Source: Desulfurispirillum indicum S5 (GTDB lineage: Bacteria; Chrysiogenota; Chrysiogenetes; Chrysiogenales; Chrysiogenaceae). Taken from it: a DNA stretch of 64,000 nucleotides. This document shows, piece after piece, positions 39,655 through 45,017 of this stretch; positions within the stretch are counted from its first letter, which is position 1, and every line of letters begins with the position of its first letter. A program made the translations under genes and the position numbers. The notes beneath the pieces were generated by a model. It was not told where the DNA came from and made no database searches. It worked only from the letters and a program-made list of their open reading frames with translations. The stretch is from assembly GCF_000177635.2 (NCBI RefSeq), contig NC_014836.1:1686001-1750000 (forward strand). The letters are read 5' to 3'.

Positions 39655-40182
39655 TCAGAACCTTCTGCCAAAGCCCATGAGCACCTGAACGGGGTGAATG
39701 CTGTGGACCTGGTGCCGTTGCCACTCCACAAAAAACGTGCTGCTGGCGTTCAGCAGTACTTCCACACCCACGCCCACATAGAGGCCTTCGCCGCTGCTGC
39801 TGCGCTCGCCACTGAACCAGTCGGCCCGCAGGCTGTTTTCGTAGATACCCAGCCCCACCCGTCCAATGACGCGTATGGGCACCTCCTCATCGTACTGCCA
39901 GGCTCCTCTGGCTCCCAGCATGAACGTCGCCGTTTCATAGCGATACCTTCCGGCAGCGCTGCTGTTCACTGATTTGCCCATGTACATGTATCCGACTTCC
40001 GCCTGCAGCCCCGGCTGCAGCTCGCTGCCGACGCGAAGCCCAAAGGGGTAACTGCTGTCCATGCCCTTGTCGTAGGCATTGTAGCCGCTGAAAATTTCGA
40101 TCTGGCCGGTATTCGCTTGCGCCATGGCGCTCATGGACACTAGGCACAGGATGGGGAGCAGCAGCCTGAGAGGAAGATTCAC
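39655..40182 (-). CDS. Small outer-membrane beta-barrel protein
   Basis: This 175-aa protein has a signal peptide (residues 1-23, ending SAMAQA) and alternating beta-strand sequence: GLQAEVGYMYMGKSV, YETATFMLGARGAW and IRVIGRVGLGIYENSL. It ends in a Phe (LMGFGRRF), the mark of proteins inserted by the BAM complex. An eight-stranded OmpA/OmpW-like barrel is likely. Its start overlaps the subtilase stop by four bases, so it is made together with the secreted protease. Its role is unknown. Confidence 0.75.
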   Translation of the reverse strand: MNLPLRLLLPILCLVSMSAMAQANTGQIEIFSGYNAYDKGMDSSYPFGLRVGSELQPGLQAEVGYMYMGKSVNSSAAGRYRYETATFMLGARGAWQYDEEVPIRVIGRVGLGIYENSLRADWFSGERSSSGEGLYVGVGVEVLLNASSTFFVEWQRHQVHSIHPVQVLMGFGRRF

Positions 40183-41753
40183 GGATTCCTCCGAGGTCGC
40201 AGGAGATAGATACCGGCCAGGGAAAAGGCCGCCGGCAGGGTGGCGTCGGAAGAACTCCCCGCGCCGCAGCCGCCACTGGACGATGAACCTGACGATCCCA
40301 GCAGCCGTTTTTCAATACGCTCCTGCTGGGACTGCTGCAGTTGCTCCTGCTCCAGAATCTGCTGCTGCAGCTGCTCATACTCCGCCTGCAGCTTTTCATG
40401 CTGACCGACAAGGTTGCTGTAGTCTGTGTTTTTGACCAGACGGGCATAATTCTGCAGCAGGCTGCGCAGGTGCTCGTCATAGGTGCTGGCAAACTCCAGG
40501 GCGCGGTGGGCGTTGAGAATTCCAGCGCCACAGCCTTTGGAGTGGCAGTCGGAATCTGCCGGGAACAGGGTGGCACTGCCGATGAGGATCAGTTCAATAT
40601 CCTCCTGAGAGAGCAGGGGGTTCGCCGCCAGCATCAGGGAGATGACCCCGGCCACATGGGGCGCGGCCATGCTCGTGCCGGAAAGGTAGCCATAATTATT
40701 ATTTGACATGGTGGATAAGATTTTATAGTTGCCTACGATAGCGCCACCTGGAGCACTTAGAGTCACCATATTGCCATAATTGCTATAGCTAGCACGGTTG
40801 CCATCATATGTGGTTGCTCCGACAGAAATTACGTTTTTACAGTTAGCTGGCGAAGTACCTGTTGAATCTAAATTAAAATTTCCAGCAGCAGCAACAACAA
40901 TTATGTCATTCGCAACAGCAAAATTGATAGCATCCTGAAGAGTGCTTGAGCACTCACGATCACCATCTGTTTGCACGCTTAGGTTAATTACATTGGCAAC
41001 ATTTAAGTTTACTGTTGAGTTATAGACTGAATCATCCCCTGCCGCCCATCGAATCCCCTCAGAGAGTGTTGTTATACTTCCAAAATTAAATCCAATAGCT
41101 CTGACTGGTAATATTTGAGCATTCCAGTCTATACCGGCAATACCTATACCATTGTCACTTTGCGCTGCAATTATCCCTGTAACATGGGTGCCATGTACGT
41201 CACCACCATCTGGGTCAATAGGAGCAAGTAGCTTGTTTTGAAGGTTTAATCCTGGCAGTATTCTGTTATCTTCAATGTCCTCATGTGACACAATTCCCGT
41301 GTCGATAACTGCGACCGTAATTTCTGCACTGCCCGTGGTGATCGCCCATGCTCCGGGCATGTCGATACCGTAGTTGGAAATGTTTGGGGAATGCAGATTC
41401 CATTGTTCATGCTGGTAGTAAGAATCATTGGGTATCACCGCCGGATACACCCGCCAGTCCGGCTCGGCATATTCCAGGTCAAGGTGACTGTGCAGGCTCA
41501 GCACATACGCTTCGGCTTCGGCTGGCGACATGGCATAGGGCAGGCGCAGCCGGTAGGCTCCGCCGGCAAGGGCGCTGTCAAATTCCAGGGAGGGGGCAGC
41601 GGCTTTCAGGGATTCGTTCTGATGGATGGCCGACAGGGATGTGGCCAGTGCTCCTGGAGTCGGCTTGATGATAATATGTTCTATGGGAGCCTGGGCCGCT
41701 GCCCATTGGCAGAATATGGCGATCAGGCAACTCAGGCGAATGGGAAATTTCAT
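40179..41753 (-). CDS. Secreted subtilisin-like serine protease with C-terminal sorting-type tail
   Basis: This is a 524-aa S8 peptidase. The signal peptide is residues 1-20, and a prodomain ends near SHLDLEYAEPDW (residue 100). The catalytic triad is complete: Asp151 (VAVIDTGI), His187 (DVHGTHVTG) and Ser361 (LSGTSMAAPH), with oxyanion Asn292. A Gln/Glu-rich coiled coil (about 425-475) leads to a tail of Ser-rich GGCGAGSSSDATLPA, one hydrophobic helix and RPRR. This is a tripartite, Cys-containing CTERM-like signal as in MYXO-, Synerg- or JDVT-CTERM proteins. Bases 40690-41330 are visibly AT-richer than the rest. It overlaps both neighbours by four bases. Confidence 0.9.
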   Translation of the reverse strand: MKFPIRLSCLIAIFCQWAAAQAPIEHIIIKPTPGALATSLSAIHQNESLKAAAPSLEFDSALAGGAYRLRLPYAMSPAEAEAYVLSLHSHLDLEYAEPDWRVYPAVIPNDSYYQHEQWNLHSPNISNYGIDMPGAWAITTGSAEITVAVIDTGIVSHEDIEDNRILPGLNLQNKLLAPIDPDGGDVHGTHVTGIIAAQSDNGIGIAGIDWNAQILPVRAIGFNFGSITTLSEGIRWAAGDDSVYNSTVNLNVANVINLSVQTDGDRECSSTLQDAINFAVANDIIVVAAAGNFNLDSTGTSPANCKNVISVGATTYDGNRASYSNYGNMVTLSAPGGAIVGNYKILSTMSNNNYGYLSGTSMAAPHVAGVISLMLAANPLLSQEDIELILIGSATLFPADSDCHSKGCGAGILNAHRALEFASTYDEHLRSLLQNYARLVKNTDYSNLVGQHEKLQAEYEQLQQQILEQEQLQQSQQERIEKRLLGSSGSSSSGGCGAGSSSDATLPAAFSLAGIYLLRPRRNP

Positions 41754-42106
41754 GGCGATGGATCACCGGCAGGGCTGGGGAGGTTGAGGCGCACCGGGGC
41801 GTCCTCTTCGGCATAGTCCAACTGGGGGAGGCTGTTCAGCTCCGAAAGCAATTGACGCAGCTGCAGGCTGTTCAGGGCTTCCTGGGTGCGCAGCAGGTGC
41901 GCGCCACCGGAGGTGGGACGCACATAGCGCAGGCGGGTTTCGGTTATCTCTTCAAGCTGCTGCACCAGTGAGGCATCCTGACGGGGGTCCAGGTTGTCAC
42001 TCCACTTGACGATCAGGGTGACCTGTTGCGCCGTGGAGGCCAGGAGGCCCGAGCCAAGCAGGCCAAGGAGCAGCAGCGTGCCGCAGAAAAGGCGCACGAT
42101 ACTCAC
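41750..42106 (-). CDS. Stand-alone subtilase-prodomain-like secreted protein
   Basis: This 118-aa protein has a signal peptide (hydrophobic residues 5-22, ending LLASTA). The mature part resembles a subtilisin propeptide of the I9 kind: VTLIVKWSDN, RLRYVRPTSGGAHLLR and LLSELNSLPQLDYAEEDAPV. It closely parallels the prodomain of the next gene (YRLRLPYAM...HSHLDLEYAEPDW). It could be a free-standing inhibitor or folding helper of that protease. It overlaps the subtilase start by four bases and the HD-GYP stop by four bases. The function is inferred. Confidence 0.7.
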   Translation of the reverse strand: MSIVRLFCGTLLLLGLLGSGLLASTAQQVTLIVKWSDNLDPRQDASLVQQLEEITETRLRYVRPTSGGAHLLRTQEALNSLQLRQLLSELNSLPQLDYAEEDAPVRLNLPSPAGDPSP

Positions 42107-43293
42107 TGGTCTGCCCCGCCATTGGAAGATTCGGGCATGGTGTCCTGGAAGGTATCGCGGATTTCAAGAATATCCTTGAGGTTCTCGAAGAAGGCATCCA
42201 CCACATTGGGGTCAAAGTGCTGGCCCCGCTCCTCCTTGAAGAGGTTGAGGATGCGCTCCAGTGGCCAGGCGGCCTTGTATACCCGGTCGCTGCCAAGGGC
42301 GTCGAAGACGTCGGCCAGGGCGGTGATGCGCCCGAAGAGGTGGATCTCCTCGCCGGCCAGACCGCGGGGATAGCCACGGCCATTGAACTTCTCGTGGTGT
42401 TCGTGGGCCACGGTGGCGGCGGCCTTGAGGATGGAGCGGCGCGACTTCCTGAGCATTTCGTAGCCCATGGTGGAGTGGCTCTTGATGACGTTGAATTCCT
42501 CATCGGTAAGTTTGCCGGGTTTTTTCAGGATGGCGTCGGGAATGCCGATCTTGCCGATATCGTGCATGGGGGAGGCCATGCGCAGGATCTCGCGTTCCCG
42601 TTCATCCATATTCATGCCACGGGCGAGCACATAGGAATATTCCGCCACCCGCTTGACGTGGTTACCGGTCTCCTTGGAGCGGCTTTCGCCCACTTCGGCC
42701 ATGGTGAAGATGATCTCCTTCTGGGTGTCTTCGATTTCCTGGTAGAGCAGGGCCGACTCCAGGGCTTTGCCGGAGTAGGAAGCCGCCAGGCCCAGGTGCT
42801 CGCGGTCCTTGTCGGTGAAATATCCCTGGGAGGTGAGTTTGTTGATGGCCTGGTAGGCGCCGATGATATCGCCATCGTTATTGCGGATGGGCAGGGCGAT
42901 AATATTGCGGGTGCGGTAGCCGGTCTGCTTGTCCACTTCCTGGTTGAAGCGGGCGTCGGCGTAGGCGTCGTTGATGATGATATCCTCACCACTGCTCATG
43001 GAGTGCCCAACCACGCCAGTGCCGGCCGGAATGCGAATGGGAGGAATGCCATGGGCGACTTTGGTCCAGAGTTCACCGCTCTGTTCGTCCAGGAGCCACA
43101 GGGTGCAGCGGTCGGCAACCACCAGTTGGCGGCCCATGTCTGCCATCAGCATCAGGATGCGGTCAACCTGCTTTTCATTGGAGATTTTCGCCACATACTC
43201 GAAGATGACTTTCAGCATCTGATCGGGTGAGAGTTCACGCTTCATGCCTGGCTCGCGGTCAAACTGGTTGTGGTAGTCGTGCATAAGTCTCAT
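42103..43293 (-). CDS. GAF-HD-GYP cyclic-di-GMP phosphodiesterase
   Basis: This is a 396-aa cytosolic signalling protein. A GAF domain covers about residues 40-190 (VVADRCTLWLLDE, GHSMSSGEDIIINDAYAD). The HD-GYP domain follows with every landmark: GNHVKRVAEYS, the MHDIGKIGIPD catalytic HD, KSHSTMGYEML, HHEKFNGRGYPRGL (the GYP motif) and ALADVFDALGSDR. It should hydrolyse cyclic-di-GMP. The start is uncertain because no ATG has a good ribosome binding site. It is the first gene of the coupled set with the prodomain-like, subtilase and outer-membrane genes. Confidence 0.92.
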   Translation of the reverse strand: MRLMHDYHNQFDREPGMKRELSPDQMLKVIFEYVAKISNEKQVDRILMLMADMGRQLVVADRCTLWLLDEQSGELWTKVAHGIPPIRIPAGTGVVGHSMSSGEDIIINDAYADARFNQEVDKQTGYRTRNIIALPIRNNDGDIIGAYQAINKLTSQGYFTDKDREHLGLAASYSGKALESALLYQEIEDTQKEIIFTMAEVGESRSKETGNHVKRVAEYSYVLARGMNMDEREREILRMASPMHDIGKIGIPDAILKKPGKLTDEEFNVIKSHSTMGYEMLRKSRRSILKAAATVAHEHHEKFNGRGYPRGLAGEEIHLFGRITALADVFDALGSDRVYKAAWPLERILNLFKEERGQHFDPNVVDAFFENLKDILEIRDTFQDTMPESSNGGADQ

Positions 43294-43367: not shown

Positions 43368-45017
43368 TCACTCTTCGTTGCGATTGGCATCAGTTTTTTT
43401 GTCTTCAGCGGGAGTTTCCGGCAGGGGTTGCACAGTGGACTGCGGGTCGGCGGCGTTCACGCTTTCAGCACCGGTGTGATTTTTGACATAGTCCAGCGCG
43501 GCCAGCACTTCTTCCTTGAGGAAACGCTTCATGACCTTGCCAGCCGCATTCAACGGGATTTCGTCGATAAAGTGAATCTGCTTTGGCACCTTGTAATTGG
43601 CCATATGCTGGCGCAGGTATTTTTTGAGGATCAGTTCATCAATCTTGCCTGGATACTCTGAGTTGAGAACCACATAGGCCACGGCAATTTCATCCAGGTG
43701 TTCATCGGGAATACCGATCACGGCAGCGTGCTCCACGGCTCCATGCTGGTAGAGGACTTCTTCGATTTCACGGGGGTAGATATTCATTCCCTTGGTGATA
43801 ATGAGATCCTTGAGGCGGTCGACAATGTAGATATAGCCATCTTCATCGATTCTGGCAATATCGCCGGTGCGCAGCCAGCCGTTGATGATGGTGGAGGCGG
43901 TCTCCTCCGGTCGGTTGTAGTATCCCTTCATGACGTTCGGTCCCCGCACGATCAGCTCGCCATCCACATTCCGTGGCAGCTCGCAAAGGTCCTCGTCCAC
44001 TACCTTGACTTCCACATCGGGCAGGGCTGGTCCGACGGAGCGGACCTTGGGCTTGCCCGGCGGTGTGAAGGCGACCACGGGCGAGCACTCGCTCAGGCCG
44101 TACCCTTCCAGTACCATCCCCGGCAGCTTTGCCTGCAGGGTGGTCCAGGTATCTTCGTGCAGTGGGCTGCCTCCTGATATGTACAGCTTCTTGCCCAGCA
44201 GCATGCGCACGTACCAGGGGATTTTCGTGCGCGCGAGCACGGAATAGATGGCGGGTACGGCAATGAAGACGTCCATGCGCTCTGTCAGCAAGCTGCGGAA
44301 AATCGGCGAAAAGGGGCGCAGGCTGGCAAACATGCGGATGGTACAGCCGAAGTAGAGCGGCAGCAGGAGGTTCGCCGTCAGGGGGAAGGTGTGGAACAGG
44401 GGCAGGAAGAGCAGGAACCGACGCCTGGAATTGACAACCGGCGAAAATGCGCGGTCGATGGAGGCCAGGTTGGCGCTGAGGTTGGCATGGGTCAGCATGA
44501 CCCCTTTGGGCTGTCCTGTCGTGCCGGAGGTGTAGAGCAGGAAAGCCACATCCTGGGACGCCTCCTGCACATCCAGGGCTGGCAGTTCAGCGGTTGTTGG
44601 TGTGCCAAGGATATGGGGGGTGCGCGATTCGCTCTCCTTGCCACCATAGAGTACGGGAATGCCTTTGTTGGAAGCATGGGCTCCGATGCGGGAAAAGCGG
44701 CCCCCGCAAATCAGCAGCCTGGGCGTGGCGTCGTCGAGGATATGCTCCACCTCCTCGTGCTTGAGGAAAGTGTTTATGGGGATGAAGATGGCCTGGAGGC
44801 GGACTATGGCGAAAAGACTGATGACGAAGTGGGGGTGATTCTCCATGAGGAGCGCGACGCGGTCGCCGGGTTGGACGCCGTGCTGGCGCAGCAGGCTGGC
44901 CAGACGCTCTGTTTCCCTGTGGAACTGGCGAAAGGATATGCGCTCCTTTTCAAATTTGAGGAAAGTTTTGCTCGGACTTGTCTGGGCAGCCCGCTCAACA
45001 TAGTGAAAAATATGCAT
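43368..45017 (-). CDS. Long-chain acyl-CoA synthetase (AMP-binding family)
   Basis: This is a 549-aa adenylate-forming enzyme that activates fatty acids. The signature motifs are LLYTSGTTGQPKGVMLTH (about residue 165), LEGYGLSECSPVV, WLRTGDIARIDEDGYIYIVDR and the catalytic Lys region near the C terminus, PLNAAGKVMKR. The last 35 residues are a polar extension. The ATG follows AGGAGC. Substrate chain length cannot be fixed, and other acids are possible. The gene lies 12 bases downstream of the kinase gene on the same strand. Confidence 0.9.
   Translation of the reverse strand: MHIFHYVERAAQTSPSKTFLKFEKERISFRQFHRETERLASLLRQHGVQPGDRVALLMENHPHFVISLFAIVRLQAIFIPINTFLKHEEVEHILDDATPRLLICGGRFSRIGAHASNKGIPVLYGGKESESRTPHILGTPTTAELPALDVQEASQDVAFLLYTSGTTGQPKGVMLTHANLSANLASIDRAFSPVVNSRRRFLLFLPLFHTFPLTANLLLPLYFGCTIRMFASLRPFSPIFRSLLTERMDVFIAVPAIYSVLARTKIPWYVRMLLGKKLYISGGSPLHEDTWTTLQAKLPGMVLEGYGLSECSPVVAFTPPGKPKVRSVGPALPDVEVKVVDEDLCELPRNVDGELIVRGPNVMKGYYNRPEETASTIINGWLRTGDIARIDEDGYIYIVDRLKDLIITKGMNIYPREIEEVLYQHGAVEHAAVIGIPDEHLDEIAVAYVVLNSEYPGKIDELILKKYLRQHMANYKVPKQIHFIDEIPLNAAGKVMKRFLKEEVLAALDYVKNHTGAESVNAADPQSTVQPLPETPAEDKKTDANRNEE

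Follow-up and report, generated by a model that had tools for sequence, protein, structure and literature searches.

A cysteine-tailed subtilase and a predicted free-standing prodomain encoded in one operon of Desulfurispirillum indicum S5

The gene chain and its protease

Desulfurispirillum indicum S5 is a river sediment bacterium whose genome, a single contig of 2,928,377 bp (99.99% complete), includes the window analysed here, a stretch of 64,000 nucleotides at bases 1686001-1750000. Positions below are counted within this window, and the features of the locus all lie on the minus strand. We found a chain of four genes in which each neighbouring pair shares 4 bp, encoding in order a GAF/HD-GYP protein, a protein of 118 aa, a subtilase and a small beta-barrel protein. 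The original prediction had described three coupled open reading frames for exported proteins, and these were found at 41750-42106, 40179-41753 and 39655-40182 with 4-bp overlaps that read ATGA or GTGA; on reading the sequence, the N-termini of all three products resemble signal peptides. A further gene belongs to the chain, since the GAF/HD-GYP gene at 42103-43293 shares 4 bp with the gene for the 118-aa protein.

The product of this first gene (396 aa) matched Pfam HD_5 (4.2e-36) and GAF (2.2e-15), the HD and GYP motifs are legible in its sequence, and it is probably a c-di-GMP phosphodiesterase. The position of the gene at the head of the chain suggests c-di-GMP control of the protease. Upstream of the chain by 74 bp, on the same strand, a gene for a 549-aa protein (43368-45017) looks by eye like a long-chain acyl-CoA ligase gene, and its product might possibly supply acyl groups for a lipidated anchor.

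The third gene (40179-41753) encodes a 524-aa precursor belonging to peptidase family S8, as seen from the S8 domain (Pfam Peptidase_S8, 168.9 bits), from relatives in the PDB and from an alignment in which the Asp-His-Ser triad is present as D151, H187 and S361, along with N292. From its N-terminus the precursor consists of the signal-like segment, its own prodomain (residues 23-107, 41433-41687), the catalytic domain, a helical stalk rich in Gln, Glu and Leu followed by a Ser/Gly linker (residues 425-493, 40275-40481, as read by eye), a GGC motif, a hydrophobic core and the closing RPRRNP. The prodomain was assigned by a match to the profile described below, of which its sequence is itself a member. 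With this protease as query, no further subtilase was found in the D. indicum genome at E<=0.001. The part of the gene encoding the catalytic core, at codons about 141-345 (40719-41333), has a GC3 of 0.17-0.45 and a GC content of about 0.41, as compared with a GC3 of about 0.57-0.80 in the rest of the gene and about 0.72-0.79 in the neighbouring genes. The 3' border of this block near codon 345 is abrupt, and it looks like a recombined segment.

The last gene (39655-40182) encodes a small outer-membrane beta-barrel protein of 175 aa (Pfam OMP_b-brl, 1.5e-12). In a member of another genus of the same family, here called G002, the same protease with the same tail is directly followed by a gene for a 200-aa barrel homologous to that of D. 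indicum (BLASTP 2e-20). Because G002 has this pair and the gene for the 118-aa protein was not found there, we take the protease and the barrel to be the conserved unit.

The 118-aa protein

The gene for the 118-aa protein occupies 41750-42106, with the mature part at about 41753-42034. Its product had been proposed to repeat the fold features of the prodomain of the neighbouring protease, on the likeness of a DYAEEDAPV stretch to EYAEPDW. This likeness is present and lies above chance: the two sequences, 22% identical in the alignment, matched in BLASTP at E=1e-3, and a profile of 11 prodomains, which included that of the neighbouring protease and left the 118-aa protein out, scored the latter at 38 bits (E=1.9e-10), against 9.9 bits for the best of 2000 shuffles. 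The match to the prodomain of the G002 protease was closer than that to the neighbour's own prodomain (BLASTP E=1e-6), and phmmer searches with the 118-aa protein retrieved subtilase prodomains from other bacteria, the best at 4.1e-9. The protein gave no Pfam or NCBIfam match, Inhibitor_I9 (PF05922) included; among 12 of its relatives, 10 match Fervidolysin_NPro-like (PF22148) and two Inhibitor_I9. A PDB sequence search with the protein returned no meaningful match, and the same search with the prodomain profile reached subtilisin prosegments only at E about 0.2-0.3.

An AF2 model built from a 12-sequence alignment of prodomains had a pLDDT of 88.8 and the beta-alpha-beta-beta-alpha-beta topology expected of subtilase propeptides, with a C-terminal extension of low confidence; a single-sequence model was set aside (pLDDT 57.7). 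Foldseek with the model returned generic ferredoxin-like folds at a TM of about 0.5, with no prodomain among the 50 matches listed. Because these matches are generic, the model supports the fold class, and the specific link to prodomains rests on sequence. Profile score and BLASTP bear out the earlier proposal, with a predicted topology in keeping, and the 118-aa protein is a predicted free-standing subtilase prodomain. Only one subtilase of this type was found in the genome, and the pairing of the two proteins is therefore likely to be specific.

The GC content by codon position in this open reading frame (0.71/0.44/0.76) is like that of the neighbouring genes, and it therefore looks like a real gene. 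The free prodomain was seen in the D. indicum genome only; it was not found in G002 or at the subtilase loci that were retrieved from other genomes and from plasmids. It is either an addition made in D. indicum or a gene lost elsewhere. Such a restricted occurrence would also fit a functionless leftover from the N-terminal end of a second protease gene that once existed, as would the closer likeness to the G002 prodomain and the mosaic composition of the present protease gene. However, the open reading frame is intact, has a signal-like N-terminus of its own and 4-bp overlaps on both sides, and its gene-like composition goes with a product that is confidently folded by AF2, and we consider a leftover distinctly unlikely.

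The C-terminal tail and the search for a sorting enzyme

The last 31 residues of the protease (494-524, 40182-40274) read SGGCGAGSSSDATLPAAFSLAGIYLLRPRRNP and have the order GGC...DATLP-helix-RPRR. A CTERM-like tail had been predicted here, and the sequence at the C-terminus indeed matches the NCBIfam model JDVT-CTERM (NF033191, cut-off 27 bits) over its whole length, with scores below or at the cut-off: 21.5 bits with the whole protein, 26.0 with the tail alone, and in the genome search 26.2, or 27 with neighbours. Of the MYXO-CTERM models, TIGR03382 scored over its cut-off (19.3 versus 15.85 bits) and TIGR03901 below (18.1 versus 20). Between D. indicum and G002 the tail is 58% identical and keeps the Cys and the DATLP motif, as compared with 47% for the catalytic domain and 20% for the linker region, where G002 has a comparable stalk that is not conserved (20% over residues 425-488). 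Conservation above that of the catalytic domain, together with an unconserved linker, suggests that the tail itself is under selection, and its presence in a second genus argues that it is not noise and that the signal is orphan and not false. The GGC is invariant in all 21 aligned tails of the GTDB phylum, and a profile of these 21, the D. indicum tail among them, recovers the latter at 1.5e-11. These comparisons place the tail, by prediction, among the cysteine-containing C-terminal sorting signals of the JDVT-CTERM and MYXO-CTERM type. Its hydrophobic core, of about 15 residues, is moderately hydrophobic and weaker than in MrtJ-bearing relatives.

In the published JDVT pairs, which come from beta- and gamma-proteobacteria, MrtJ and a single tail protein are encoded next to each other (PMC11980579). 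In the Deferribacterota, of the same GTDB phylum as D. indicum, we found both the tails and MrtJ, a range that goes beyond those pairs. PF02517 was over its cut-off in 41 of the 51 genomes of the phylum, and all 22 of the PF02517 proteins that were scanned matched MrtJ at E<=0.001, the first with 93 bits (cut-off 75). The GGC tails of the Deferribacterota sit on trypsins, a subtilase, leucine-rich-repeat proteins and Ig-like proteins. MrtJ-like proteases are widespread in the Deferribacterota (genomes G003-G050), where GGC tails are frequent as well, and some genera have an MrtJ-like protease with no tail at E<=0.1. In G022 (L093, 6634-10136) a tail-bearing protein and a tail-bearing trypsin are encoded convergently, and the MrtJ-like gene lies elsewhere in the genome; the sister-genome counterpart of the former protein matches Peptidase_S8, and the sister genomes G020 and G021 have a similar close pair of tails.

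The original prediction had also called for a matching sorting protease and for other proteins with the same tail. In the D. indicum genome there was no match to MrtJ (NF033192, E<=0.001), CPBP/Rce1 (PF02517, E<=10) or rhomboid (PF01694, E<=1; positive in 14/14 control genomes), and exosortase (PF09721, E<=1) gave none in either D. indicum or G002; absence here means non-detection by profile searches that start with a loose first look. A profile of 22 MrtJ-like proteins of Deferribacterota gave no match at E<=10 in three members of the Chrysiogenaceae, D. indicum included, and matched in G022 at 5e-51. A weak CPBP match in G002 (PF02517, E=0.005) was rejected because its frame contains stops and runs antisense to an open reading frame of 519 aa, leaving that genome too with no CPBP protease detected. 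Searches of the D. indicum genome with JDVT-CTERM and with the 21-tail profile gave no second credible tail-bearing protein, the second-best matches being rejected for want of the GGC motif. The outcome named beforehand as speaking against the prediction has thus formally half come about, in that neither a sorting enzyme nor a second credible tail protein was detected.

With none of the known tail-cutting enzymes detected, the tail would either function uncut or be the substrate of an unrecognised kind of enzyme, and in the Chrysiogenaceae a CPBP partner may have been lost while the tail stayed, or may never have existed. Conservation in two genera with no detected CPBP protease, and a GGC that does not vary across the phylum, are in line with a new sorting protease in the Chrysiogenaceae, other than a CPBP protease, rhomboid or exosortase, that would cut the tail, probably after lipidation of the Cys. 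But the same conservation could also serve an uncleaved anchor, no candidate gene was found, none being conserved beside the protease in both genera, and the rhomboid search covered D. indicum and not the second genus; we hold such an enzyme to be possible, if doubtful. A simple transmembrane anchor at the C-terminus, one that plays no part in sorting and resembles the JDVT-CTERM and MYXO-CTERM signals by ancestry only, would agree with sorting enzymes being undetected here and present in most of the Deferribacterota. This appears rather unlikely to us, given that the Cys and DATLP motif is conserved beyond mere hydrophobicity and that the short core is weaker than in relatives possessing MrtJ. 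Lastly, the CPBP protease might be present in D. indicum and too divergent for our profiles, as non-detection after a loose first look would allow; yet the same Pfam search succeeded in most genomes of the phylum, and the lineage profile, so strong in G022, was blank in all three family members, which makes this very unlikely.

Proposed role and comparison with known systems

Our main reading, to which we give a probability of roughly 0.6, is that the operon encodes an envelope-anchored subtilase, exported by Sec and probably delivered by type II secretion (T2SS), with a trans-acting prodomain as a check and an orphan Cys-CTERM that is left uncut or is cut by an unrecognised enzyme. The 118-aa protein, the subtilase and the barrel would leave the cytoplasm by Sec, judging by their N-termini, and folding of the protease would be assisted by its own prodomain. 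The 118-aa protein would probably bind to the protease in its mature form, as a product-like inhibitor, a folding chaperone or both, and keep it quiet in the periplasm. The Cys-helix-Arg tail would retain the protease in the inner membrane, although stable anchoring with no processing is uncertain, since the searches found no tail-processing enzyme and the hydrophobic core is both short and of only moderate strength. A T2SS has been reported in D. indicum S5 (PMC4793230), and MYXO-CTERM and GlyGly-CTERM proteins depend on such a system (PMC11980579); it would probably then deliver the protease to the cell surface in the same manner, with the barrel as a conserved outer-membrane partner.

What is new here is a cysteine CTERM protease whose customary sorting enzyme went undetected in the genome and which shares its operon with a predicted free prodomain. 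More tentatively, and at well under even odds, the Chrysiogenaceae may process a Cys CTERM by an enzyme that is not of the CPBP, rhomboid or exosortase kind, or lipidate it and leave it uncleaved, on a protease that is also subject to a trans-acting prodomain from the same operon. The myxosortase model has two steps, lipidation of the Cys by an unknown enzyme followed by cutting of the tail by a CPBP protease (PMC11980579). Where the Cys tail is conserved and no CPBP protease is detected, these two steps are separated in nature: either anchoring works uncut or another cutter exists, and the missing enzyme bears on the open step of that model. A free prodomain encoded beside its target in a bacterium would show a way of silencing a secreted protease until it reaches the surface.

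The nearest counterpart of the tail, the JDVT-CTERM/MrtJ system (NF033191/NF033192), shares the whole-model match at the cut-off, the invariant Cys, the helix and the basic end, but D. indicum has no detected MrtJ or other CPBP protease. The MYXO-CTERM/myxosortase (MrtX) system has the same tripartite Cys tail, with TIGR03382 over its cut-off, and differs in that TIGR03901 is below cut-off in D. indicum, no CPBP protease was detected, the phylum is another and there is one client as against dozens. GlyGly-CTERM and rhombosortase, with VesB of Vibrio, likewise involve a serine protease that is secreted, bears a sorting tail at its C-terminus and is delivered by T2SS (in the present model for D. 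indicum), whereas the D. indicum motif has a Cys and no rhomboid was detected. The 118-aa protein is homologous in sequence to, and predicted to be of the same fold class as, the subtilase prodomain families (PF22148, PF05922), and is free-standing like the propeptide-like inhibitors POIA1 and yeast PB2. It differs in being bacterial, in sharing an operon with its presumed target and in having no Pfam match of its own. A further likeness is to an Acinetobacter enzyme and chaperone, presumably CpaA and CpaB, whose families are not known to be related to those of the D. indicum proteins. T2SS substrates of Acinetobacter have dedicated membrane-associated chaperones (PMC4713064), and the D. indicum protease would similarly be a secreted enzyme encoded with its dedicated helper.
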